A stretch of DNA of 64,000 nt, from assembly GCF_032854445.1 (NCBI RefSeq), contig NC_088295.1:23237385-23301384 (forward strand). Direction: 5' to 3'. The notes under the pieces were generated by a model. That model was not told where the DNA came from. It saw nothing but the letters and a program-made list of their open reading frames with translations, and made no database searches. Shown piece after piece: positions 7,927 to 64,000 of the stretch. The position numbers were made by a program, and so were the translations under genes. The DNA comes from Liolophura sinensis. Lineage: Eukaryota > Mollusca > Polyplacophora > Chitonida > Chitonidae. Position 1 is the first letter of the stretch; the number at the start of each line of letters is the position of its first letter.

Positions 7927-8167
7927 GGGGCCTTAGTGGCCGCGAGGGTTAGCACGCCAGCACAACGTTGCTGTGAGTTCAAGTTCAGCTCATGCTGGCT
8001 TCCTCTCCGGCTGTTAGTGGAAAGGTCTCCCAGCAACCTGCGGATGGTCATGTGTTTCCCCCGGGCTCTGCCCGATTTCCTCACAACATAATGCTTGCCA
8101 GTGTCGTATAAGTTAAATATTCTTAAGCACGGCGTAAAACACCAATCAAATCGAATAAATAAATAAA
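7927..8167 (+). repeat. tRNA-derived SINE-like element
   Basis: A near full-length copy. It has an A-box-like segment (gtggccgcgagggttagca), a B-box-like gagttcaagttc at 7975-7986, then the family body (ctcatgctggcttcctctcc ... cccccgggctctgcccg ... gtcgtataagttaaatattc) and a 3' tail of aaataaataaataa. Other copies or fragments in the window are at 13155-13205, 23136-23265, 29918-30030, 33645-33835, 61240-61500 and 63945-64000. Assignment as a tRNA-derived SINE rests on the A/B boxes and the repeated simple tail. Confidence 0.75.
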
Positions 8168-8360
8168 TTATTGAAATAGGTTAGCTTTAGCATTAATAAG
8201 TTTCTTTCAGCACTATCTCCATCATTATGAAGAAATGAAAATGTTCATTTTCTTGATTATTCTGACGCTATCTTTCCTCTTCTTACAATATTAAGTAGTT
8301 AAATTTTAGTAACTTTATGGAGAAAACTAAGACAGTATTTGTGTTTGTGTTAAGTTCTTT

Positions 8361-10372: not shown

Positions 10373-11047
10373 ATGAGGATTCATGTGGCTGTCAGTGTCT
10401 AAAACAATGTGACAATCTGGGCCTGCAGTGCAAGTGTAGCAGATCACGAAATAAAACATGAGGACTCATGTGGCTGTCAGAGTCTAAACCACTGTGAAAA
10501 TTTGAGCTTCTAGTGCAAGTGTAGCAGATCATCATATAAAACAATGTGACGGTTTGGGTGTCTGACACACAAGTAGTACATCATGATACAAAACACTGCG
10601 ATGATCTGTGCCTTCAGTGCAGGTGTAGCAGATTGTGATACAAAACAATGTGTCAATTTGGACCTACAGTGCAAGTGTAGCAGATCATGATGTAAGACAT
10701 TGTGACGTTTTGAGCCTGCAGTGCAGGTGTAGCAGATCATGATATAAAAGTCTGTGAAAATCTGGGCCTACAGTGCAAGTGTAGCAGATCATGATATAAA
10801 ACACTGACATTTTGGGCCTGCAGTGCAGGTGTAGCAGATCATGATATCAAACACTGTGACATTTTGGCCCTGCAGTGCAGGTGTAGCAAATCATGATATA
10901 AAATACTGTGACATTTTGGGCCTGCAGTACAGGTGTAACAGATCATGATATAAAACACTGACAATTTGGGCCTGCAGTACATGTGTAGCAGATCATGAGA
11001 TCAAACACTGTGACATTTTGGGCCACCAACACACATGCAGCAGATCA
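10373..11047. repeat. 52-bp minisatellite overlapping the paladin stop codon
   Basis: Tandem units of about 50-52 bp (longer and more diverged at 10373-10520), recognised by the recurring gtgtagcagatcatgatat and gggcctgcagtgcaggtg. Successive cagatcat positions are 10681, 10733, 10785, 10835 and 10887. The last unit contains the paladin stop codon (tca at 11045-11047 on the plus strand), so the 3' UTR starts inside the array. Confidence 0.9.
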
Positions 11048-14000
11048 TGAGAACACTCCTCTGACAGCAGCATGGGGTCTGCGGTTTGACCAGCGTGCCG
11101 CCATGGACTTCAGCTCACAAGGCACAGGGGAGAAGTCATAGAAGGCCAGGTTATCCAGTATCTTATACACTCCAGCTTTAGAGGCCACCTGGGAAAAGGG
11201 AAAACAAGAAAAAATGACCCATATGTGACCCAAGCTACGACAGAAGCATATTTCAGAAATGCACGCCATTATTAAGAACAAGAAGTAATCCATTCCCAAC
11301 AATTTAGGAGCTAGAGTTTGGCTTGATTTGCAAAAATAAACACTGTCCACACCTTCAGAATCTTTTCCTCTATAATCCTATGTCACAGGAGTCCTCACCT
11401 GTTTCATCCACTGACTAAAGCGTTTTTTCCACCTGGTCCACCTCTCAGCATGAAGGTAGGCATTGAACAGAATCATGTATATATACCGCTCCAGATAGTC
11501 CAGACTCCTCCACTTTAAGCGCTTCCTCTCCTCTTCAGTCTTGGCTTTCTTCATCTTTAAACACATGAACATATAAAAATCTGTGCATCACAAAAACAAG
11601 TGCCATACACACTTTCTTATCTTGGCTTTTAAATTTAAGAGCTTGAAGCATTTGTAATGAAAGTTTAGTCACACATAAAATTTTACATTGGTCTGATTTC
11701 TAATGAATAACAAATGGAACTTGCTTTGCCTTACATAAATTGCAGGTTTAAATCTTACTACACGGAACACTGGGGCCTACATGCTACCCACCCATAGCAA
11801 CAATTTCGAAAGAATGACATCCTACTTACTTTATTGTAAGTCACAAAGATGACTTCTCTCATGTGGAAATGCATGGGGGTCATGGTCTCAAAACACTTGT
11901 CCAGGATAAAGTCCACTTCTCGCTTGACCTGATGACCATTGGGCAGCAAATGAACCAACTTCTGAACCACCTGAAGAGCAGCAAAACTTCCATGGTGTTA
12001 TATAAACATAAGTGCTTGATTATGTATGCATGCAAGCTTTGATATATTATATTGTGGCAAAGGCACCATAAATACCCTAACTGAGCTGAAATTTTGCCCT
12101 TAAACAGTATATTTTTCAAGGCAAATAAATGTCACAAAATATTATTATTGGTGCTGAAACTTACAATTTTCTAGTAGAATATCATTCCAGGTGCCAAGCA
12201 AACTTCAAAACACCTATAAACATTAATATAATTCTCAGAATCATTAAAAATGGGTAAGTTGGTCACTGACAAAATTTTTGGTCATTTAAGGTAAATCTCC
12301 ACACAAATAAGGTCACTGACTAGAAAAATTGATGGAACATTGAGTACTCACAATGAAGTCTCCTTTTGTGTACTGAGCATTCGGACACGACACTCTTTCC
12401 TGCTCTCCTAGTTTTGCTCCATAAGGAAAACCCTGAGACAAAACGATGAGAGCCCATGATATTTAAGTGCCACAAGTTCACTGTCAATGTCTCCGATGAT
12501 CTGACAGTAAAGTATATAAATCATACTACATATACTATCGTGTACTACATGTATTACCTGACTCTGATTTCCTGCTATTAAGCAGAAAACATTATTTGGT
12601 GAACATCGTTAAACACCATGTGTTCTTATATGTATTTAGCAGAGTACAGCTTTAAAATTGAGCAGGTAATGGCATCAACAGAAACAATGTTTACCACAAA
12701 GACACTTTGGGAAACCATTTCTGTTCTCCTTATCCACCACTCTCCCTGCAGTTTTCCTTGAGTTACCTTTTTGTGACACATAATGAGCCCTGCGAGTGCC
12801 ATGGCGGTAGTGGTTCTGCTCTTCCCAGTGCGACAGTAGAACACCACAGCTGGCCCATCCTCATCTGTGTGCACCTCCCTCAGCCCATTCATTATGTCCA
12901 TCAGCTGGTCAAACGTCTGCCAAAGTACACAATGTTCTCAATGTTAGAAAACAGTGCCATGTTCGTTCAAAATTATCACACTGAATCCTCATGGATATCA
13001 AATTCTTCACAAACATTACTAAATACCTACATATTAAACTAAATGTTTTGACTGTTCAAGGAATGAACACATTTCTTAACACAGGCCCCTCTGAATGCAG
13101 TGTTAAATATTCATCATGATCCTGAATATATTTACTTATCTGATCAGTGTTTTCACAATACTCAGGTATATTTCACTTATACGATGGCAGCCAGCATTAT
13201 GATGCCTTACCTGTTCGTCAGGGAGCTTCTCCACATCCATGGGCACTCTGCAATACATCACCCATGGGGACATCAGTCTCTGCTAGACAGACTAGCAGAG
13301 ACTTCCTCCTTACCTGTTCATCAGGGACCTTCTCCCCATCCATGGGCACTCTGTAATACATCACTTATGGGGACATCAGTCACTGCTACTCTACCTTCTC
13401 CTTACCTGTTCATCAGGGACCTTCTCCCCATCCATGGGCACTCTGTAATACATCACCTATGGGGACATCAGTCTCTGCTCCTCTACCTTCCCCTTATCTG
13501 TTCATCAGGGACCTTCTCCCCATCCATGAGCACTCTGTAATACATCACCTTTGGGGGCATCAGCCTCTGCTACTCTACCTTCTCCTTACCTGTTCATCCG
13601 GCGCCTTCTCCCCATCCATTGGTACTCTGTAATACAGCATTTCTGGGGTCAGCAGTTTTTGTTGCTCCACCATGTCTTTACTGGTTAGTATACTGCCAAT
13701 CTGCAATGTCTCTGGCAGGTTTGAAATATCCCTGTAAACCTGAATAAAGTCAAAACATTCATATTTTACATGTATTTTTATAGCCATATTTGCATAACAC
13801 ACCTGTTTAACCCATGAAGTGAAGGATATTTAACAAATATATCCCACATAAAAGTTAAAACTTTTTAGTGAAACTAACCGATAAAGTGTTCTTCTTCTCT
13901 ATTTCCTCTTTCAGTTTTTCTTCTTTTTCCTGTAAAATCAAGAAAAAATTCAAAAATCAAGATAGAGCCACTATTCATTTTCCTTCTTTCTTTTAGAGTT

Positions 14001-17000
14001 CATGAACAGGCTTAAAGCACTTTCCTCTTCTTTTTTACTCTATAGCTGTGTTCTATAATATTAGTCTAAAGTTCTGTCACTAACACTAACATAAACCGGT
14101 ATATCAAATCTACCATCTCTCCCAGGGCTAATACAAATTGTTTATTTTGCCTTTGTACAACTAACTTTTGATCCAGTCCGGCAATAGGTGATGAATTCAG
14201 CTACACATACCTCAATATCTTTCCTGGTGACACCATGCATGATGACAGGCTCCTCCAAGTCTGTCGAATCCCTCACGCTGAAGGTCTCTGTATCACAGTC
14301 AACAACCACATCATCCCTCAGGTTCACCAGCACTACAACAGGGTGACCCTGCTTCTTACTTAACAGGTGACTCACCACCTTACACAAGCCCTGAAACAAT
14401 GCAGGTGCATGCAGATGGTAGTAACAGAAGCTAAGTGAGATATAAAATGACAGACTCCGAGCAAAACTTAACTACACAATGACACCTTCATGGATTGGAT
14501 ATAAACGATGCTGCATTCACTTCAGGGAAAAACACCTACATGATCTGAAATTCTCCATATCCAAATGAACACAATTTCCACATAAACAGCAGAATTATTA
14601 GCTATGAAACGAAATTTATCACTTCCAAGTAATTTTAATTAAGATCAGATGTTCCATTTGTGTTTTCATCAGGTTCTTACAGGATCACATCCCTGTATCG
14701 CTTTCTCCAACACAAATTGGTTATCTCCCTTTATTACATACTTGTAGCAAAAGCTCAAAACAAACCATTCAAAGTAGATTGCATTAGAAAGAGAAGCTTA
14801 CATTTCTGTTAGGCTGAGCCATGCCATAAACAGGTAGGCCTGTGACTTTACGGAAGTTGGACACTTGTACATCCATTTGTGAGCTGAGGACATCTAAGCC
14901 TATGTAATCATCGGATACCTGCAATCAACAGCAGTCAGTTCATCTGTAAGCATGTTTTAACAGCTTAATATGAAAAGAATTTTGTCCTCATCAGCAAAAA
15001 AAGGTACTTCAGACCCATGAAAAATATATGTATCAAAATGTAGTAATAAATATTTGCCAATTTGTACGTTGCATTCTTTTTATATTCTTTCCATCCTGTT
15101 TATTTGGACATCTTTGTAACATCAAAATTAATAAGTCCCATTCAAGTTTCACTTTAATTTGAAATTTGTTCTTACCTGTGAGATATCACCTATTCTGAAC
15201 TCTAAGATGATCATTTGTCTTCATATATTCTGGGAGATATATGTCATGTGAGATATCACCTACAGGTCAGAGTTTTCTCATAAGATATCTCAGCCCTGAG
15301 CTGACAAGACCATCAGGTATCTTCAAACCTGAGAGATACAAGTGATGTGAGATATAACCTAGACATCAAGAGTTTTTGGCATTCACCAGATATCTCTGCC
15401 TTGGGGTGATAAGAGCCGCAGGTGTCTTCATACCTGGGATATACAGGTAACCAGACATATCACTTACAGGTCAGAATTTGCCATACTTACCAGATACCTC
15501 ACTCCTGAGCTGATCAGACCAACAGGTGTCTTCCACTCTGTCCTGTCTAGGTGACTCCTGATGCGTATTAACTCAGGGTGGTGGTGTAACCAGGATGTGA
15601 AACTCGAACAAAACATCACATGAAACTGGGAACAAAACATTATCTTCAACAGCTTGCCCACAAAATCCAAAAAATTGTCAAATAAGTGCTTTGCATAAAA
15701 TTATATTGGCAGTAACAAAGATCCTTTGTAATCTTCATAACAAGTATATGCATTTCAATCATCAATGGATATATGAAACTCTTGGTGTTCATTTAGTATA
15801 TGATGTGTCCTAACATACAAAACTACTAAAAAGCTAAAAATCAGCTTTCTCTATAGGGTTTTAAACTACAGTTTCCTCAGGCACCAGCGGTCAGTCAAAA
15901 ATTATGTAGAATTGTCTGGTGACATCAACAATAATATCTGTCAAAACAACTTTGCTGAGGAGAGAGGCCCAATTGGGAGCATTAAACTGCATTTCCGGTG
16001 TATTCGTCGATGGCATCATTTCCGAATATTTCTGACCACTGACGGAAAATGTGCATAATATAGAGGGGTTATTAAGATATATAACATATGCCTCAAAAAA
16101 GAAACAAAGTATTTCTCATTTTTTGGCACATTTTTCACTATGTTCCTTGAAAACATACCCTTCGTTTTATAGTAGCTTTTTCTGTATCCTTTACACCAAC
16201 TTGATAGATTCACAACAATATCTTACAACCATTCACCATTTAAACTTCCTCTTTTAATTTACAACCATTATAAATATTATAACATGAACAACTAGTAGAC
16301 TTAAGTTAGAACTCACTTGCTCTCTGAGGTAGGCATTAAAGCAAATCAGGAAAAAGTACCTATCCAAGTACTGACAGCATTTATCCAGCAGGTATCCTTT
16401 AGCACTATGACCCTGTAGAATGTAACAAAATGACACGTAAAATATACATGTCTTAAATAAATTTTCCCACAAGTGACTCACAGATATGTACACAATATTG
16501 GCGGAAGACAAGCGGTCTTTACAAACTTAAGGCTTTACCAATGGCCTGGTGCAAAGTGTTGAGCACCTTAATTCTGTCACCAAGGTCTCACAAACAGTCA
16601 GTTTCACAAAATCTACAAATTCTGTGCACAACACGGAAAGCTCACCTCACTTAAACCAGCATGACAGAATACAACATTTGTTTTCAGTTGTCAAAGTTCA
16701 TGGTATGTAACATATAATAACTTATAATACGTTATAATTATTCATATTATAAAATTGAGCTGAAACAAATTTTATAGCCAGTTCTAGATAAATACATCAA
16801 CTGGTGTTCACATTTTAAATTTAAGTTTTACATAAATAAACAAGAAATAAACTGCAGTTACAGAAACCGGCAAGCAGCAGTGTGTATTGTATAACTGGGT
16901 AGAGCTCCCAACCATAATACATTGTATTACTATAATATTACTCAATGTATGCTATCAGTAGGGTATTTAATTAAACTTAAATAATTTCAAAAGCATAAGA

Positions 17001-23000: not shown

Positions 23001-25308
23001 CTACACAAGACATCTAGTGACTAACACTAGATGTCTTGTTTATGTAAGCCATTCCACCAAAAAGTTGTTTGCAGTTGTTTACTGGATACATAACACCATT
23101 TGATCCCGGATCTGGCATTACTTTTGAAAACATGACTAGACTGGTGTTTTTTTTTATTTTATGCCATAGGCCAAAATATTTTATTTATGTTGTGGCTGTC
23201 AACATTATGTTGGGAGGAAACTGAGCAAAACCCACGGTCACTTGCAGGTTATTGTCTGACCTTGTTCACTAGTTCACACGTTCATACAAACAACAAAATG
23301 TTCTTCTGATTGAACAGACTTTCTGTAACGAGTTCTACTGAGACTTACAGACTGACGATCCTCCAGCAGACTGCAGATGACATAGAGTAAGCCATCCTGT
23401 GAAGGCTGGCCCATACCCAGTACTGAAAAACCCTTAGCCTGGCGAACATTGGGGGCCTGAAACTTCTTCAAGGTGTTTAGTTTGTCAACACAGGTACTTC
23501 TGTCCTTCACAAGGAAGTATTTACCCTGAAATGTTGAAAAGACATTATTGGCTCTGAACTCTTCTTTCTATATGTCTTGAAATTGTTATGGCTTGTGATG
23601 CAATCACAGAGGACAGATCTACATACCTTTGAAGTGCAAGAGAACATGTGAAGTCTTGATCTGCACGAACATCTCGTATTAATACCCGCTGAAGTACATG
23701 TGCCCAAAGTACATTGCTCAACAAATAAAGGCAATTACACATACATGTGCATTATATTACTTTTGTATCATGTTATCCATTCCTTTTGGAATTTGAAAAA
23801 TAAATAAGTGAAACCACTTTGTACTGGGTTAGACAATATTTTCTGATTCATTTCAAATTGTTTTCATGTAGTACACAAGTCTTTAACCCGAATTACAAAA
23901 GACAACGCTTTGTCTTGACACCATATTTTTGCCATAATCAGGAGAGTTCATTTTCATTTCATCCCCTCTTCTAAATTCTGCCTATATGATGCAAAGGAAA
24001 TTGATCAAAGATAGTCTTTCATACACTGCCACATATCCATAACTTTATACAAGTTAACAATATAATCTGATTCCAAACCTTTATTCCAAAAAAATTACAA
24101 AAGCATTCTGACAAAACATAAGGGTTGCGTGTATTTCCTGTATTTATCTGTGTTCATTCATAATTAGAATTATCTACACTCTCTCACCTGTATTTTTCTC
24201 TTACCTTTAAGAGAGGGTGTTCCTTCATGCCCACAGCCAGACTACCCATAACGATAGGCTCCTTCAGATCCACTATGTTCTGGAACTCCTCCTTACAGTT
24301 CTTGATGATCACTGGTGCCACACGGTTTGTTCTCACCACACATGATTTGTTCTCTTCTCCGTTACCCTCTATCATGACACAAACAATCTACAGTCAGACC
24401 TCAGCATGGGAGCATGCTGTGTATCAGCGTCATCACACTTCACAGTCTTACAGGTTAGTTAAGAATTCTAATTACAGTATAATATACAATATGTTTTCAG
24501 TGGTATTGTGACTCCAATTTAATGTTAATAATATTATAATAATTTAATGTTTATTTTAGGAAATTCTTCATTCCTACATGAGCAAAACAATTATTTATAA
24601 AATCAATTTTAGACAATATTATCAAAATAACCTTAAATACAGCAAAAACTACCAAAGAAATATGTAAAATGTACAATGTGTTGATCACTTCTCTTTGAAC
24701 TCAAGTCTAACCGTAACCTAATCTTGGACGACACAGCCTGCCGTAATGAAGCAAAAGGACAAAATGTTCATTGGTATTAAATATGATGAAATATAATGCG
24801 GTTTGAACACTACATGTACATGTAATATTCCTACTAGCACACCATCATCAGTTGTCTTTTTTTTGTCTCTATGATGTTGTCTTTTTTATCCACCAAAGCC
24901 TTTTTCTTCAGGAGCCAGTCTGCCATTGGCCTGGCATGGCAGTGGTATCTTCTGCCCATAAACCTGACAGCCATTGTATGAGCTGGGTGCACTATTGGAT
25001 TTTCATAAATTATCAAGCGAAATTTGTAATATTGGAGCATAGAGTGTAAATGAGAATTTGTGAATGACATGGACTGTCTGGCGGAGAAAAGCCTATAGTG
25101 CACCTTAATGCATCGTATAAGTGAGAAATGTAAACCTAATCAAATGAGTACAACATGAATTCTGAGAACTGATATTTGTCTTACCTTGCTTTGTTCTCTT
25201 GTTGTCTGACTGTCTGTGGGATGTACTCCCCTTAAGGCTTTTTGGGCTGCTCTCTAAGGACCCATCGGGGCTCATTGGGGGGCTGCTGGAGCTGGCCCCT
25301 GAACCCAT
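11045..25308 (-). CDS. PALD1: Paladin, tandem phosphatase-domain protein (20 coding exons)
   Basis: Coding exons in transcript order (minus strand): 25185-25308, 24205-24368, 23349-23525, 21382-21546, 20462-20625, 19625-19700, 19081-19226, 18797-18908, 17142-17246, 16317-16412, 15491-15625, 14802-14918, 14211-14390, 13879-13929, 13590-13739, 12767-12916, 12352-12432, 11830-11970, 11399-11554, 11045-11188. All join in phase with GT-AG sites to give 877 residues, close to the 856 of human paladin. The N-terminus MGSGASSS is a candidate myristoylation site. Two CX5R signatures are intact: CHSGIGR (Cys about 310) and CRTGKSR (Cys about 682). Other family hallmarks are VLGMGQPS, ETMTPMHFHMREVI and YLERYIYMILFNAYLH. 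Known vertebrate paladin is a cytoplasmic/membrane-associated protein acting in receptor trafficking and phosphoinositide turnover; protein-tyrosine phosphatase activity is disputed. The start exon begins at 25321 after an acceptor (gcccag), so at least one 5' non-coding exon lies upstream. Confidence 0.95.
12767..12916 (-). CDS. PALD1: Paladin exon with second CX5R signature
   Basis: Encodes TFDQLMDIMNGLREV..., then VVFYCRTGKSRTTTAMALAG. CRTGKSR keeps the catalytic-type Cys (about 682) and Arg (about 688), and the following TTTAM matches vertebrate paladin. Phase 0 at both ends; donor GTAACT. Confidence 0.93.
13155..13205 (-). repeat. SINE fragment at the edge of the exon-copy array
   Basis: The segment tatttcacttatacgatggc and agccagcattatgatg match the 3' half of the SINE family in reverse orientation. 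Homology stops exactly where the first 92-bp exon-end copy begins. Confidence 0.6.
13203..13589 (-). repeat. Tandem copies of a paladin exon end plus splice donor
   Basis: Four copies lie directly downstream (minus strand) of exon 13590-13739. The donor-side ttacctg or its variant occurs at 13207, 13310, 13402, 13494 and, for the real exon, 13586, so spacing is 103, 92, 92 and 92 bp. Each copy repeats about 60 bases of exon end (encoding variants of YYRVPMDGEKxPDEQ), the donor, and about 30 bases of intron. Three copies keep GTAAGG; the copy nearest the exon has ATAAGG. Two copies carry an in-frame TAA or TAG just upstream of the repeated coding part. Confidence 0.9.
15178..15490 (-). repeat. 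104-bp tandem copies of another paladin exon end
   Basis: Degenerate copies of the 3' end of exon 15491-15625 and its adjacent intron begin near 15178, 15282 and 15387, with the real exon edge at 15491. Matching blocks include agatatctc-x-cctgagctgacaagacc against agatacctcactcctgagctgatcagacc in the exon. Donor positions in the copies are altered (for example GTGAAT at 15381-15386). Confidence 0.8.
15975..16205 (+). repeat. Unnamed dispersed repeat, copy 1
   Basis: Resembles 56355-56575 in the same orientation. Shared blocks are catcatttccga/ctgacca, aacatatgcctcaa, ccttgaaaacata and tagctttttctgtatcct. It lies in a paladin intron. No coding capacity. Confidence 0.6.
17682..17746 (+). ncRNA. 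Compact folded element resembling a decayed hammerhead ribozyme
   Basis: An outer stem pairs 17682-17690 with 17739-17746 (8 pairs, one bulged base). Inside, 17708-17714 pairs perfectly with 17717-17723 as a stem II-like hairpin. It is preceded by CGGACGAG, one base from the hammerhead core CUGANGAG, and followed by GGAAAAGG where the core would have GAAA. Two core deviations suggest it is inactive or only similar. It lies in a paladin intron, antisense to that gene. Confidence 0.35.
17962..18560 (-). pseudogene. Broken tyrosine recombinase (Crypton/DUF3504-type) fragment
   Basis: The minus strand shows the C-terminal part of a tyrosine-recombinase-like domain: VWYYSTPMGEHRLGELMKRA, then GLTGQKTNHSV, then (after a TGA at about 18342-18344) KTTVQTLV, then QVTGHKSLASIQEYDF, QKQMSSLLQGN and the tail GAVFNNCTFNF. 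The TGA falls where the arginine of the H-x-x-R motif is expected, consistent with a CGA to TGA change. A frameshift near 18480 separates it from FYLTPIPE in another frame. The second catalytic His (TGH) and a candidate nucleophile Tyr remain. The family includes Crypton transposases and their domesticated relatives (KCTD1/ZMYM/QRICH1 C-terminal domains). It sits in a paladin intron, same strand as the gene, and is not expected to be functional. Confidence 0.75.
18606..18641. repeat. Perfect 14-bp inverted repeat
   Basis: Arms 18606-18619 and 18628-18641 (caactgtccaatat and its reverse complement) are separated by 8 bases. It lies just upstream of the recombinase remnant as read on the minus strand. 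Confidence 0.9.
19081..19226 (-). CDS. PALD1: Paladin exon with first CX5R signature
   Basis: Encodes EVPEFFLCKD..., then LIFTCHSGIGRSHVGMVMG. The loop CHSGIGR has the cysteine and arginine of the CX5R phosphate-binding loop (residues about 310 and 316). Human paladin has CQMGVGR at the same place by family knowledge. The exon ends in phase 2 before donor GTAAGT and continues at 18908. Confidence 0.92.
19345..19410 (-). repeat. Decayed SINE 3'-end fragment
   Basis: cttgattggtacttaacacc followed by gtacttcatgatatttcacc resembles the SINE terminus in reverse orientation. Short and diverged. Confidence 0.45.
23005..23039. repeat. Perfect 15-bp inverted repeat
   Basis: Arms acaagacatctagtg (23005-23019) and cactagatgtcttgt (23025-23039) enclose a 5-base loop. 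It lies in a paladin intron. Confidence 0.92.
23136..23265 (-). repeat. Decayed SINE-like fragment
   Basis: A tttttttattttatgcc start, then caacattatgttgggaggaa and cccacggtcacttgcaggtt, correspond to the SINE family in reverse orientation. Confidence 0.55.
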
Positions 25309-33644: not shown

Positions 33645-33835
33645 TGGATACCTGGTACATGTCCAGCTCATGCTGGCTTCCTTTCCGGCCGTACGCAGGC
33701 GGGTCTGTCAGCCACCTAAAAATGGTCATGGGCTTCCCCCGGGCTCTGCCCAATTTCTTCCCACCATAATGCTGGCTGCCGTACATATAAGAGAAATATT
33801 CTTCAGTATGATGTAAGACACCAATCAAATAAATA
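33645..33835 (+). repeat. 5'-truncated SINE-like element
   Basis: Starts within the body (gtccagctcatgctggcttc) and continues through gggcttcccccgggctctgc, cataatgctggctgccgt and the tail caccaatcaaataaata. The head with the A and B boxes is missing. Confidence 0.75.
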
Positions 33836-34556
33836 ATTTTTTCAGCATAGTTCCATCACTGTTAAAGCAGCTCTAACAGTCTAAAATTTGTAGTACATTT
33901 GTACATGAATGGTATATGAATGGTAAATTATTTCCATGTCCACAACTCCTCATATTGCCTGATGCTACTAACTGGTGACCGAGTTCTGCAAATTATATTT
34001 ATCATATATTACTTCCCATTCATCCACTGTCTCCTTCACTTATATAACCACCCCTTGACTTGTGATGGTTGTTTAGTTAAACCATAATATACAAATATGC
34101 TTTCATGGTTGTTGTTTTTTTTGTTTGTTTGTTTTTTGGCGTTTTTTTATGCAGTTGTTACTACATGAACTTGAATTATTCACATTTTCAATCAACTAAT
34201 GGAACAGAACAAGAAGATGACATACCAGTAAATGACTTTATGTGAACAATGCTCATATCTTTCGGTTTAATCTGGTCATCATATGATTTAAGTACGTACT
34301 TTGCTAATCTACTTTGCAACATTTTTACTCTACTGTCTCCGTATAGTACAGGATGTTATAGCCTGATATGAGGTACCTGGTGTCCACTAGAGGGGTGTCC
34401 ACACCTTGCATGCTATGTGCCAAATGGTCAAGCTGGCTAGCTGCTCAGGTAAAATAACCCCAGTCTGTCAAAAACTGACGCAAAGACAATAATTGCTTCC
34501 TGTCACAGAAAATCTGAGCTGTGATCTTTGCATCTTTAACAAACTGATGAGCTTAC

Positions 34557-36269: not shown

Positions 36270-37590
36270 GAAATGCTTCAACAAAAACCTTCCCCTGGAT
36301 ATCTATGGCCGAACAAAAGCTGATGATTCACCCAGGTATATCTGTGGCCTAAACAAAAACCTTCCCCTGTGTATCTGTGACCTAAACAAAAACCTTCACC
36401 TGGGTATCTGTGGCCTAAACAAAAACCTTCACCTTGGTATCTGTGGCCTAAACAAAAACCTTCCCCTGTGTATCTGTGACCTAAACAAAAACCTTCACCT
36501 GAGTATCTGTGGCCTAAACAAAAACCTTCACCTTGGTATCTGTGACCTAAACAAAAATCTTCCCCTGTGTATCTGTGGCCTAAACAAAAACCTTCACCTT
36601 GGTATCTCTGACCTAAACAAAAACCTTCACCTGGGTATCTGTGACCTTTAATAACAAAAGCCTTCCCCTGGGTATCTGTGGCCTAAACAAAAACCTTCAC
36701 CTGGGTGTCTGTGACCTAACAAAAACCTTCACCTTGGTATCTCTGACCTAAACAAAAACCTTCACCTGGGTATCTGTGACCTAAACAAAAACCTTCACCT
36801 TGGTATCTGTGACCTAAACAAAAACTTTCATCTGGGTATCTGTGACCTAAACGAAAACCTTCACCTGGGTATCTCTGACCTAAACAAAAACCTGGGTATC
36901 TGTGACCTAAACAAAAACCTTCACCTGGGTATCTGTGACCTAAACAAAAACCTTCACCTGGGGATGTGTGGCCTAAACAAAAACCTTCACCTTGGTATCT
37001 GTGACCTAAACGAAAACCTTCACCTGGGTATCTGTGGCCTAAACAAAAACCTTCACCTGGGTATCTGTGACCTAAAACAAAAACCTTCACCTTGGTATAT
37101 GTGACCTAAACAAAAACCTTCCCCTGGGTATCTGTGACCTAAACAAAAACCTTCACCTGGGTATCTGTGGCCTAAACAAAAACCTTCCCCTGGGTATCTG
37201 TGACCTAAACAAAAACCATCGCCTGGGTATCTGTGACCTTTAATAACAAAAACCTTCACCTCAGTTTCTATGATTTAAATGAAAAAATCTTCACCGAGTA
37301 TGTCTGGGCTAAACAAATAAACTTCAACTGTGTTTCTGTGACCTAAACAAATAAACTTCAAATGTGTATCTGTGACCTAAACAAATAAACTTCAACTGTG
37401 TATCTGTGACCTAAACAAATAACATTCAACTGGGTATCTGCAACCTAAACAAATAACATTCAACTGGGTATCTGCGACCTAAACAAATAACCTTCAACTG
37501 GGTATCTGTGACCTAAACAAATAACCTTCAACTGTGTATCTGTGACCTAAACAAATAACCTTCTTCTGGGTAGCTATGAACTTTACAAGA
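36270..37590. repeat. 33-bp minisatellite, about 40 copies
   Basis: Units of cctaaacaaaaaccttcacc plus tgggtatctgtga, near 33 bp, with variants (cttggtatct, ataaccttcaactgtg) towards the right end. Because the unit is a multiple of three, the minus strand stays open for 124 and 68 codons, reading repeats of GHRYPGEGFCL. No splice or start context supports translation. Confidence 0.93.
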
Positions 37591-39497: not shown

Positions 39498-40210
39498 AAA
39501 CACTTCCCTAGCCTTCTACCATTAGCACACTTTTCCATCGTTAGCACTGATGGAGGAGGCATAAATCCCAGACAACAACAACAAAAACACTTCCCTAGCC
39601 TTCTACTATAAGCACACTGATGACAATGATGGAGGAGACATCAAGACCAGACAACAACAAAAACACTTCCCCAGCCCTCTATCGCTAGCACACTGATGAC
39701 AATGATGGAGGAGACATCAACACCAGACAACAACACAAACACTTCCCCAGCCTTCTACCATTATCACACTGATGACAATGATGGAGGAGACATCAACACC
39801 AGACAACAACACAAACACTTCCCCAGCCTTCTACCATTATCACAATGATGGTACTGATGGAGGAGACATCAACACCAGACAACAACAAAAACACTTCCCC
39901 AGCCTTCTACCATTATCACAATGATGACAATGATGGAGGAGACATCAACACCAGACAACAACACAAACACTTCCCCAGCCTTCTACCATTATCACAATGA
40001 TGGTACTGATGGAGGAGACATCAACACCAGACAACAACAAAAACACTTCCCCAGCCTTCTACCATTATCACAATGATGACAATGATGGAGGAGACATCAA
40101 CACCAGACAACAACACAAACACTTCCCCAGCCTTCTACCATTATCACACTGATGACAATGATGGAGGAGACATCAACACCAGACAACAACACAAATATTT
40201 CCCCAGCCCC
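39498..40210. repeat. 76-bp minisatellite, about nine to ten copies
   Basis: Unit aaacacttccccagccttct, accattatcacactgatgac, aatgatggaggagacatcaa, caccagacaacaacac. Starts fall at 39661, 39737, 39813, 39889, 39965, 40041 and 40117, exactly 76 bp apart. The first units near 39498 and 39587 are longer and more diverged. No open frame spans it. Confidence 0.93.
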
Positions 40211-52987: not shown

Positions 52988-55900
52988 ATGATCTTACTTC
53001 TTGTGGCTGCTTACTTTGTTCATGTTTCTCAAGGTAAGAAATGTAGTATCAAGGGGTCAGACATATTTTTAGGGAACGGCTTCAAATGTCCAAAAGATAC
53101 ATTTGTTGCACAAAAAATGGATGCTTTTCAAGTATATTCGTTTATGTTGCATATTTAGTGCAATCGCATATGTAATTATCCAGTCTGTTTCAACTGACTG
53201 GATAATAAATTTAAATGCGTGCCTTCCTAGTATATTTTCGTATAAATTTTATGAATATAATGAAAACCTTTCTAAATTCACTTTCACATGAACTCAATAT
53301 ATGCCTATGGTTTTTTTTTTCAAATTTACCTGTATCCTTGAACATAAGGCCTGTCCAAAGCAAATAGTCGTTTTCCTCAGCTGAGCTAATTTTTGACATC
53401 AGTGTTCTTCACTGCACTAGTGCGGCTATTTTATTTCCCGCTTAACCCGCTGGAAAAACTATTTGTGCCGGTATGGTGTAAAATGAATTGGCTACTGTGG
53501 ATACATGAACAGTTGCAAGCAAAGCGCACGTGAAGTACATATTTTTGATTAATCACAACTTATGGACTAGCATGGTACACAATTTGGATATCTATTAAGT
53601 TTTTTTCCCTGGAATATTCCGTGTGCCTTTCGGGAATTATTGAAAACTTCGGACAGCTTTGCTATACATTATTTCGCCCTTATTTTATATTTTTTATATA
53701 CTTAATGTATGCTTTCTTAGTTTTTTGGTGGTTTATGTTGAACACTTTCTTGGACGTTGTTCTTGTGAATATTGACCTGGAATGCCCATTACTGACGATT
53801 GGTAAAGGTTTATTCAGTTAAGAAGCCTAGATTTATAAATTCTGGCCTGAAATAGCTTACACCAGTATTCAAAGAATCCAAGAAGGTGACATTTGCTCAC
53901 ATATGTTATTGTCTATGAGATTATACGTCTGTGCAATTGCTACTATATTTCTGCGTGCCCATTTTCTTGGCGGTTCTCGGCTTATAGATTCAGTCTCCCT
54001 GACATCATGTACTTCTCTCCCATTTGCTTTCCATCAGCCACGTGCCCTCACAATTTCACTTCAATCAATGGCCGATGTTACCTGGCGTCTAAGGAACAGG
54101 TGGACTGGCAGACTGCCGTGGAGGAGTGTTCTGACCTGGGAGGATTCCTGGCTCTGTCCACAACCCCGGACCGACGCACTGCCATACACCTCTTCACACA
54201 TGTATCAGGCATGGGTGAGTTATCTATAGTTGCCCAACAACTGATTGTGTAATTCATCACATCTTACAGCTATTATTCATTGGGATGAGAAAATTTGCCA
54301 ACAAAAATTTTCTAATTTCTATATGACACACTACAACGCAATTTGTCGTCGGTGGTGAGTTTTTCAACGTTTGATACACATATTTGTATATCCAGAGAGA
54401 AGAAAAACATGGGATACAGATGGTAATGGTAATTAGGTGTTCTGGCGGTTATTAGCAATCTAGTGAAATATGATCACATATTGTAATATGATGATTTACA
54501 TATATAGCGCACATTTTCTGTAGAATATACCGCTGTACTGAACTAGTCATTGTAATAAACATGGGTCATTGAGACAGACGAGTGAGGATGAATTTCAGAG
54601 GGAACATTTGATTATCATGAAGACCCTCTTTATTGGTTATATAACATATAGCTTCGTCCGCCTTGGTGACTGAGCGATACTGCCAGCGTATAGACGAAGT
54701 CGAAAAATCCGTTGTACAAGAGCTGATTAACACAGCCGCATGTTTGTTCCTTGGGTTTTGTGTCGCAAGTCGGAAAGTCCGTTGTACAAGAGCAGATTAA
54801 CATAACTGAATGTTTGTTCCGTTGCATGAGTGTTGTGCCGGAAGTTGAATATTCCATTGTAAAAGAGCAGATAAGCATGACTGCCTTTTGGTTTCGATGC
54901 GTTTTATGTCGAATGACGTTGTTGTGACTGTGAGACTGTAACTGTTAAGTGTGTGTTCTCATGTATATCTTTGTTTCAGAGCTGTATTTCTGGTCACCGG
55001 TCATCCTCTCAGACGGAGAATCGGTGTCCTGGAATGGCCCGTCGGAATTCGCCTCTCAGTCTGGCGGGAGATTACAATGGAAGCATAACATGAATGAGAC
55101 TGGTCCGGACGACTGCGTGGCCATGGCTGTGGTCGGAATCAGAATCGAGTTCTACAATATCGACTGTCTGGAACCTCTGCGTTACATTTGTGAAACTATT
55201 CCAGGTAGTACCCCCCCCCCCCCCCCCCCACGCCCACGCCCCCGTCTTAATCGTTGTGCTAAGGTTCAGACAGTCGCGTATCACGATGCCACAACCTACA
55301 ACTATGCAGGAACTAGTGCCGACTCTGGCGTGATCATTGGCCAGTGTAACAAAAAAGCTTTGAATAATCTTAGTTGTCTTCAGGATACCAGGAGACAGAA
55401 AAGCTTTGATTAACCTTAGTTGTCTCCAGAATACCAGGAAATCCACTGACAATTTCAAGGCCAAGTAATGATGTATGGCACAAATATTTGATGTAAACCT
55501 AGATAGACAGCCCAGAGTTAGGCTTGTTCAATACCGTAAAGAAGCAGAAACATTCGTCAATATATAGTATAGAAAGTGATACACGCCAATTGGCATACCG
55601 GTGTGTTTCCATTTGATTCACGTTTGATTGCATATATAATGAATTAATGAATGACTAAATTAAATATAAACTTTGCAGAAAATGAAACCTTGTCAACTTT
55701 TACCGACGGTGACTTAGATGATGTTGTGACCAGTTCTTTGCCACTTTATGTAACAACGATAGAGGAGTGCGCTCTCCTGTGTATGTCGTCAGAAAACTGC
55801 ACTGGAATAAACTTGTCCCCAAACGGCACAGAGTGTTATCTGCTCACCACAGTCAGCGCCAGCAACAGCACCGCGAATGCCACGGTCGGCCACAGTGTGC

Positions 55901-59019: not shown

Positions 59020-62000
59020 GCTGAAGAGTTGAGCATGTTCCTAATTCATTTGTACAAATGTGAAGTTGGCTCACCGTACATATGTCATAATTCGTTTACG
59101 TCAAGTCAAATCTATAATGATTCTTTTATACATGTAGGCCTACAAATTATTTGAAAGCCTACAGATGTGAAATAAATTTTAATTTGAATATGGCGCAGAA
59201 AGGATTGAACATACGTATATGTACAAAACAATGGCGAACTCAGAAAACTCAAAGCTGTGAAAGCTTTTTTTTTTTTCATTCCTTATGATTCCTTATTATG
59301 TCACAGCTCATAACACATATAACCATGGTTGTAAAATGTATTTCTGTTGATTTTGTGTGAGCAAATGTCAGTAAATGAATTGACTTTGAACTGATAATAC
59401 CTGGTAGGCTATTGATTAAGTATTTTATTTATTCATTTTATTTATGTTTTAAGGCTGTCAAGTGGTAACAACAGTAGAAAATGGCAGAGTTGATGGAATT
59501 CAAATGCCCCTGGTGGGTTCAAGCTTTAATTACAGCTGTGACCCTCTGTTTAGTAAGACTGAAGAAACAGACATTATCTGTCAGCCCAATGGCCGATGGT
59601 CAAGATCACCGAGCTGCCAATCAGGTGAAAAAGATTTATTTTCAGTATCATTAAACACACATACAGTTCTGGTATAAAATATATAATACCAGACATAATC
59701 ATGATTTAAATCCTTCCCGAGTTCATTCTGTAACTTTTACGTGATGAAAAACTTCAGCAATAATTTTCCATTTTAAGGCTTTTACTTTAACATTCTAATT
59801 TGGAAGTGATGTATTCGCACATGATATTCTTTTGCTGATATACAGAGTGTAGTCTACAGGGTTATGAATATAGGATTTCTGCCTTATTAATGAGATAACT
59901 AACTGTCTACATGTACATTGCCATTTTATAATGTGTTTTGTTTTAATATACAGAATTTTTCTTTCTCATCCATAGATATTCCATGTCCTTATGGGTGGGA
60001 GAGCCACAGAGGTAGCTGCTACTCCATCTCCTTGGAGCCACACACATGGGAAGAGGCCAGGGAGAAGTGCCAAAACTCCAGTGGTTTCTTGGTGGAAATA
60101 AATGACCGGGAAGAAATGACCTATCTGAACCTGCTTTTAGATTACAACAGAATCCTGTGGTATTGGACGGGTGGAAACGACCTATACAGGGTTTGTGAAC
60201 TTAAGTTATTTATGTCAGGATCATGGTTTTTTCTCAGTGCAGACTTTCTTGTTTGAAAACCTGTCTTGCCACACAGGTTACAAAAATCAGGTTGTGATAC
60301 ATTGTGACCTATGAAATAGTAGCCATATATGAACCAGTCATAAACAATAGACTATCCTCATTGCTCAGTAAGTTTGCCTGGTTGCATATTCTGGCTTTGC
60401 AGAAAACTGTATTAGGAAATATGTCAGGAATTTTCTGAGGGTGGGTGGGCGGGGGTGAGGTATCTTCCTTATGTCATCCATCTATTAAGCTGATAGCTGT
60501 CATATTAGTGAGGTGCATGTATTCTTGATTAGTGTGAAAAGCTTTAAGCATCAAATAAATGAATCCATAAACAGTAAACAATTAAAAAAAAATCCCAAAT
60601 TCCAGTACTGTGGTAACATTCTCCTAACATTTGATATATCAGCTGGCAGTTACATGTAACACATGTTTTCTGCATGGATGCTTCTCCTTCACTTTCTTCT
60701 AGTAATATCCCTGATGAAATACTCGAATTTTTAGGAAGGCTTCTTTAGCTGGTGGAGAGATCTGTACACACCTATGGAATACACAAAGTGGAAGTTGGGT
60801 CAGACAGTGACAACCCCAGCAGTCCTCACAAACAACAACCAGTTTGACTGTGTGTCATTACAAAGGACAATAGACAGTGTTGATGAGGGGCAGTACTTTT
60901 ACATGGAAACTGACTGTGAGATGAAACTACCCTTCATCTGTGAAAAAGAAAGTTAGTCACACTTTAGTATACCTACATCATTTTATTTATTTCACTCTGT
61001 AACATCTTGAAGTTGTGCCATGATAGAAAATCAAAGTTTCCAAGTTTTGTATTATGTGTTCATGGTTAAATATAGCCTAAAAGAATGGCAACTACCACAC
61101 TGCTCTTCTGTATGTTGGGACTAAGTAATATACAACCCAGTAGTAAATGAAAGAATAACTTTTCTGACAAAATTTTTTTAAGACAACCAAGTCTTTTAAG
61201 AGCATAATACCATGTAAAAAGTACTTGAATGTACATGTACTTAATTTATTTATTTTATATTTATTTATTTGATTGGTTTTTTATGACTTACTCAAGAATA
61301 TTTCACCTATATGAAAGCGACCAGCATTATGGTGGGAGGAAACCAAGCATAGCTTGTGGGAAACCCACAACTGTCTGCAGGAGGCTGACCGAGCTTCCAA
61401 TGTATGACCAGAGAGGAAGCCAACATGATCTGGACTTGAACTCAGAGTAGCTGAAAGTGAAAGGCTTCTGGGTCATTGTGATGCACTAACATGTTGTACT
61501 TAAATTTAAGAGTTTATTTTGTGTTTAATCATACCATGGCAACAGAGAAGCTCTCCCAGATACAGACTTGAATTGTTCTGTATGTTACTCCACCAGGGAT
61601 AAATGTTGGGGGATACAACTGCTCTCTATTTGAGCATGATGCTTGCTCTGGCCCAGCCGTGTGCATCTCTGACAAGTGTGTGTGCCCTGAGCTGAACTAC
61701 ATTAGGGTGGGAGAAGACGATCATCCCTCTACGACATGTCGTGATGGTAACTGTAGCACAATTATGCTAGCTGTCCAAGCATGATCATGTTTCAAAAGAA
61801 GATTTGGAACATAGATGTTTATAAAATATTCCCCCATGAAAGCAAAGTATTTTATCTTTAACCTGAGCATATTGTGGCAATTTTAACCGTTCAAAAATAT
61901 TTTGATCTCCGTGAGCTTTTTTGGGAAAATGAACAGACTTGAAATCCATCTCAGATACAGTTGCCTAGATGTATGTATTAAATGTTTGATGGTTTTAAAG

Positions 62001-63870: not shown

Positions 63871-63944
63871 ATAGTATGAGTTATCCCCCTTGAAACTTGG
63901 ATTATTTCCCTTTATAATATTACATTCCACTTAGGAAGTATGAT

Positions 63945-64000
63945 TTTATTTATTTGTTTCATTGGTGTTTTACGCCGTACTGAAGAATATTTCACTTATA
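63945..64000 (-). repeat. SINE-like element cut by the window end
   Basis: tttatttatttgtttcattg then gtgttttacgccgtactgaa, gaatatttcacttata: the 3' end of the family in reverse orientation. Confidence 0.85.

Follow-up and report, generated by a model that had tools for sequence, protein, structure and literature searches.

A paladin-like gene on the minus strand

The window, which here means the whole stretch of 64,000 nucleotides of Liolophura sinensis DNA that was analysed, carries on its minus strand a gene whose exon peptides match the PTPlike_phytase family (Pfam PF14566) in two places: the joined exon peptides around the first repeat array (array 1) at 2.5e-29, and a second set, farther upstream in the gene, at 1.7e-19. 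The presence of two PTPlike_phytase-type domains in one gene supports its reading as a paladin (PALD) phosphatase-like gene, the specific name resting on homology. The original prediction was right to place the exon at 13590-13739 in a paladin-like gene, and to describe its splice donor as copied into the intron that follows. This exon terminates as GATGAACAG/GTAAGG (a slash marks the splice position throughout), and its reading frame carries on in the next exon from 12916; position 12917, previously proposed as the acceptor, is instead the final base of the intron. The features of this part of the gene are as follows.

13590-13739, minus strand: exon of the paladin-like gene, peptide VYRDIS...APDEQ, phase 0 at both ends, frame open from the first base to CAG
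13681-13590, minus strand: T0, the source copy, being the final 92 nt of exon 13739-13590
13498-13589, minus strand: unit U1, 92 nt, 71/92 identical to T0, one in-frame stop, end donor D1 lost
13406-13497, minus strand: unit U2, 92 nt, 71/92 identical to T0, one in-frame stop, end donor D2 CAG/GTAAGG
13314-13405, minus strand: unit U3, 92 nt, 73/92 identical to T0, three in-frame stops, end donor D3 CAG/GTAAGG
13211-13313, minus strand: unit U4, 103 nt, 63/92 identical to T0 without 11 nt, end donor D4 CAG/GTAAGG
13119-13204, minus strand: fragment of a dispersed SINE-like repeat, its alignment starting at the seventh intron base after D4
12767-12916, minus strand: following exon, TFDQLMDIM...CRTGKSRTTTAM, 150 nt, acceptor TTTGGCAG/ACG, phase 0

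The exon table of the gene has 19 entries, with boundaries set manually. Site scoring left out the three of 18 acceptors and one of 18 donors that lacked AG or GT at the listed coordinate, and used 15 acceptors and 16 donors, the sequence of array 1 itself being excluded from the latter. In the analysis with a first, self-trained matrix, 17 of the 18 donors entered, and 14 of the 17 acceptors, were found. The table lacks an exon near 24327, so the high-ranking "unannotated" donors at 24204 and 24187 may be real.

Tandem repeats also begin at the 3' end of this gene (10373-11050, minus strand), with a 52-bp period and 10.5 copies, also read as periods of 102 and 154 bp. The TGA stop of the last exon appears to fall within the first unit, and the 3' untranslated region would therefore be a minisatellite. 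Elsewhere in the window there is a 33-bp tandem array at 36339-37579 (about 37 copies, either strand of which has long open frames) and a 76-bp array at 39548-40208 (8.7 copies, 92% matches). Pieces resembling a C-type lectin domain, with Pfam matches under the curated cut-offs, lie at 53890-55413 on the plus strand, and a 70-bp tandem array lies between such pieces at 54696-54883.

Anatomy of the first array

The four tandem units U1-U4 repeat the final 92 nt of the exon (minus strand 13589-13211; 92, 92, 92 and 103 nt), to which they align over their full extent, and lengthen an existing intron by 379 nt. That four units of 92-103 bp are homologous to the exon, as had been proposed, is borne out by a local alignment score of 89 between the exon and its downstream intron, where none of 60 shuffles exceeded 25; Tandem Repeats Finder calls the same array as 92 bp x 3.6. 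Unit-unit junctions read GTAAGGAGAAGGTAGAG or variants of it, and align with the exon interior GTAAAGACATGGTGGAG. The sequence that follows GTAAGG within the units thus comes from inside the exon, meaning that each unit is exon save for about six donor bases. Hence each unit copies around 30 codons, rather than the 20 or so first suggested, and little of the intron start that was thought to accompany them. By contrast, the intron past D4 reads GTAAGGCATCAT, which differs from the GTAAGGAGAAGG of the unit junctions, where what follows matches sequence inside the exon.

The donors at 13589 (D0, that of the exon itself), 13405 (D2), 13313 (D3) and 13210 (D4) are all CAGGTAAGG, identical over nine bases, so three units do keep a good donor; D1 at 13497 is CAGATAAGG (ATAAGG), the unit nearest the exon having lost its GT as described. 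In-frame stops had been reported in two units, yet all four contain them (one, one, three and one), with that of U4 counted in the exon frame once its 11 extra nucleotides are omitted. This unit also overlaps a perfect 12-bp inverted repeat, with arms at 13275-13286 and 13292-13303 and 5 nt between them, which would fit a template switch during replication, of the kind that the available text of PMC8794818 describes. For RNA structure, z was -2.15, with two of 100 shuffles being equally good.

The fragment after D4 aligns with copies at 33762-33848 and 61256-61334, among others, of a dispersed element of up to around 200 bp, which is SINE-like in its sequence and AT-rich tail and is found at 7971-8168, 33655-33836, 61248-61447, 63944-64000 and 13119-13204. 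In four regions with this element, no inverted repeats of at least 14 nt were found.

A second array in the same gene

Each of the 19 exon entries was scanned against both neighbouring introns, with flagging set at 1.3-fold over the shuffle maximum. Two of the 19 were flagged downstream and none upstream; the first exon, compared with the 800 nt upstream of it, scored 29 where shuffles reached 25, under this line. Besides the exon of array 1, the scan identified exon 15625-15491, which scored 49 against its downstream intron (shuffle maximum 25). The tail copies of this exon are spaced 104-105 nt apart, in an array that Tandem Repeats Finder did not list.

15491-15625, minus strand: exon E0, its tail repeated in the downstream intron, donor CTG/GTAAGTATG
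15387-15490, minus strand: V1, tail copy 15431-15387 (32/45 identical), donor CTG/GTGAAT at 15386, acceptor-like site 15433
15282-15386, minus strand: V2, tail copy 15326-15282 (36/45 identical), donor lost (CTT/ATGAG), acceptor-like site 15328
15176-15281, minus strand: V3, strongly diverged and partial, limits set manually, adjoining the strong donor-like CAG/GTAAGA at 15175

As the donor of the first copy is weaker (GTGAAT) and that of the second lost, array 2 looks older, or faster-decaying. Among its splice-like sites, 15328 and 15433 rank 12 and 15 among 912 unannotated AGs, 15433 comes 11th as a donor among the matches listed of 978, and 15175, at the far end, is the top-ranking unannotated donor.

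A common origin of the two arrays was considered and rejected, their alignment score of 21 falling within those of 200 shuffles (maximum 28). With random placement in the gene, a pair of arrays as long as these would both span a donor with P ~0.15, a value that takes the number of arrays as given and omits the third array at the gene's 3' end. The occurrence of two donor-spanning arrays in one gene is therefore suggestive, a coincidence rather than a proven bias. A broader reading of the pair, in which exon tails and their donors are, in this lineage, repeatedly tandem-copied into the next intron, and the resulting decoys (full-strength donors and, for array 2, good acceptor-like sites) divert some of the paladin pre-mRNA to unproductive splicing, seems to us improbable.

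Divergence and age of the units

The units U1-U3 are mutually identical at 85-87 of 92 positions, and U4 matches them at 77-79 of 92 with its 11 extra nucleotides left out. Private substitutions number four in U1, three in U2, two in U3 and 11 in U4. Tandem arrays are prone to misassembly, and often suffer it, so the number of units might be wrong, or the array itself invented; but as the units carry private substitutions, an assembly duplicate is unlikely, and with U4 bearing its own palindrome, and a second, diverged array lying in the same gene, we regard such an artefact as extremely improbable.

Between the exon and the unit consensus, dS is 0.54 and dN 0.13 over 18 synonymous sites, giving an NG86 dN/dS of 0.24 once two stop codons are excluded; for the exon against single units, the range is 0.20-0.37. 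Between units, dN/dS is 0.81-1.02 in four of six pairs, with just 1 to 3.3 synonymous differences per pair, and in the remaining two, which have zero synonymous differences, it is not computable. The units therefore look to be diverging from one another neutrally. The first duplication looks old, as exon-unit synonymous divergence is about 0.5, albeit from 18 sites and with wide error, while U1-U3 look to have been recently amplified or homogenised. Hence the earlier description of a recent array caught decaying holds as regards decay, given the unit-unit ratios and the stops in all four units, but only partly as regards its recency.

The original prediction also drew attention to the conservative changes within YYRVPMDGEKxPDEQ. 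These can arise with no coding role for the units, from a constrained exon combined with a neutral unit branch: in simulations of this model, the few changes observed at codon positions 1 and 2 arose with P = 0.12-0.15, and at least two stops with P = 0.13-0.14. With both branches neutral, the codon-position pattern had P = 0.031. Constraint on the unit branch improved the fit to the codon positions (P 0.42-0.95, the 0.42 being at omega 0.5), although by construction such models are unable to produce stops. Given this fit, and the exon-unit dN/dS of 0.24, the units may conceivably have coded for a time before they decayed. Across codon positions, changes between exon and units (6, 3 and 10) did not differ significantly from those private to units (7, 7 and 5; P = 0.18). 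The donor-side half of the copied tail has diverged from the exon at five of 45 positions, against 14 of 45 in the other half (Fisher P = 0.037, uncorrected), and this lower divergence beside the donors could reflect either constraint or conversion there. Overall, coding use of the units is not favoured, as the changes between them look neutral and all four contain stops.

Strength of the extra donors

The shared nine bases of D0, D2, D3 and D4 give a pairing with U1 snRNA of -11.5 kcal/mol, the second-strongest value, after -11.6, for the 17 scored donors, and D2-D4 occupy ranks 3-5 among the 978 unannotated GTs of the gene. Splicing from them would extend the exon by 184, 276 and 379 nt respectively, and every such extension first reads VRRR*, with a stop at the fifth codon. 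Nonsense-mediated decay usually follows a 50-55-nt rule, under which this early stop means that decay of the message would be expected. As 92 is not a multiple of three, only splicing from D0 keeps the protein.

Such donors might be used as a regulated switch, in which a shift to a downstream donor would introduce a stop and thereby lower paladin output. Their strength would permit it, and a comparable human array, the VNTR in ABCA7 intron 18, does leak: in the available text of PMC5954066, a splice made one unit farther on yields an isoform that is out of frame, with a premature stop, and subject to decay, at 2 +/- 1% as matched by the order of values in the text. However, the donor 9-mers show no sign of selection, one of 36 sites having changed (P = 0.41 when set against the rate of the units themselves), which is no better conservation than elsewhere in the units. 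One of the four copied donors has been lost, the units diverge in an apparently neutral manner, and array 2 retains one copy with a weaker donor, the next having none. Hence a regulated switch appears unlikely. We think instead that D0 makes the protein, with the other donors being at most leaky decoys.

Unit ends as acceptors, and units as exons

The intact unit ends all read CAG/GTAAGG, and could in principle serve as tandem AG/GT dual-specific or recursive splice sites, through which the array would be removed stepwise. Human UBC uses arrays of such sites, according to the available text of PMC10809524, and in array 2 the site at 15433 is good both as an acceptor (15 of 912) and as a donor (11th among the matches listed of 978). 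In array 1, however, the unit-end sites are weak acceptors, scoring -3.7 to 0.9, whereas real acceptors have a median of 5.3. With the first matrix, which had been trained on the same acceptors that it scored, the separation was wider (-8.9 to -2.0 against 5.7-18.2 for real acceptors). Under leave-one-out scoring, the 15 real acceptors range from -4.7 to 12.7, with three below zero, and this range includes D2 and D3, which as acceptors score 0.9 and rank 187 and 188 of 912. This overlap with the weakest real acceptors makes the argument from weak acceptors less decisive than it was at first, yet on balance stepwise removal seems very unlikely.

The units might also be, or once have been, alternative or cassette exons for a variant form of YYRVPMDGEK.PDEQ. 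All four units keep open an in-phase stretch of 51 nt (17 codons), and the low exon-unit dN/dS fits with coding use, but the AGs that would open this stretch are poor (rank 520 in U1 and 471 in U2, of 912), that of U3 is misplaced by one base (rank 667) and U4 has none, such that only U2 has both AG and GT at the needed places. Alternatively, the site TATTACAG/AGTGCCC within the units (TATTGCAG in U4, AGTGCTC in U1) has an acceptor score of 2.9-4.2, well within what real acceptors reach under leave-one-out scoring, and from there to the donor would make an exon of 37 nt in U2-U4, although one that shifts the frame. The changes private to units are spread over the codon positions (7, 7 and 5), and tandem or mutually exclusive exons would need their own acceptor and donor with an open frame, whereas the full copies hold stops in all four cases. 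Hence we consider such exons highly improbable.

Origin of the arrays

The explanation that we favour, and hold to be quite probable on the sequence evidence, is that the exon tail and its donor were duplicated in tandem, then re-expanded, and have been decaying neutrally, with D0 remaining the main donor and any leakage being unproductive. Firstly, a duplication would have joined the donor CAG/GTAAGG to a similar stretch, CCAGTAAAGACATGG, within the same exon, thereby copying the exon's final 92 nt with the first intron bases of the donor. Secondly, as 92 nt breaks the frame, the copies would have been intron thereafter; D4 is probably the ancestral donor, and D0 its copy. Thirdly, the array would have grown to four units, probably via unequal exchange, and decayed neutrally since, with U4 additionally acquiring its template-switch-like palindrome. 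Fourthly, occasional use of D2-D4 would generate transcripts with early stops, which would be degraded. Array 2 would be a further product of this process, at a later stage of decay. This account assumes that D0 wins over identical donors that are closer to the acceptor, and the array is most likely tolerated on account of a first splice signal that remains functional.

Comparison with known systems

Among the matches listed in the literature on donor-spanning repeats, there was no case closer than ABCA7. In the available text of PMC5954066, the ABCA7 repeat likewise starts at the canonical donor, that of exon 18, and in array 1, as there, the donor is repeated by the units (D0, D2, D3 and D4, with D1 lost). 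However, the ABCA7 unit is 25 bp, starting from the intron GT, and present in about 12 to 427 copies, whereas that of array 1 is 92 nt, nearly all of it coding exon, in four copies. Use of downstream donors was measured in ABCA7, where skipping of the following exon also rose with array length; in array 1, any such use would bring in the predicted stops.

Internal tandem repeats at exon-intron boundaries are also reported for human segmental duplications (available text of PMC2812944), and there too the boundary repeats become intronic or alternatively spliced, although those cases are recent human paralogs with transcript support, whereas the copies in array 1 look old. Intron gain by tandem duplication, as far as the sources available describe it, is similar in that duplicated exonic DNA with splice motifs becomes intron, leaving the peptide unchanged, but array 1 needs no new intron, and extends an existing one. 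The tandem dual-specific sites of UBC share the AG/GT at repeat boundaries, although in the available text of PMC10809524 their units are 228 nt, in frame and coding, rather than 92 nt, out of frame and with stops. Hence the units of array 1 are not removable in frame as those of UBC would be, as 92 is not a multiple of three and stops occur in all four; as for site strength, the donors are strong, and the acceptor scores low, yet overlapping those of the weakest real acceptors under leave-one-out scoring.

By analogy, array 1 is the same class of event as the boundary tandem repeats of human duplicates and intron gain by tandem duplication. What is particular to the present case is the near-wholly coding unit, the four donors of equal strength, and the two arrays at different stages of decay. 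Four donors with an identical 9-base sequence, spaced 184, 92 and 103 nt apart and facing one acceptor, constitute a natural series of competing donors, which could be used to ask how cells choose the outermost among equals. Together, the pair of arrays would represent two stages of one route by which introns are lengthened from a duplicated exon.
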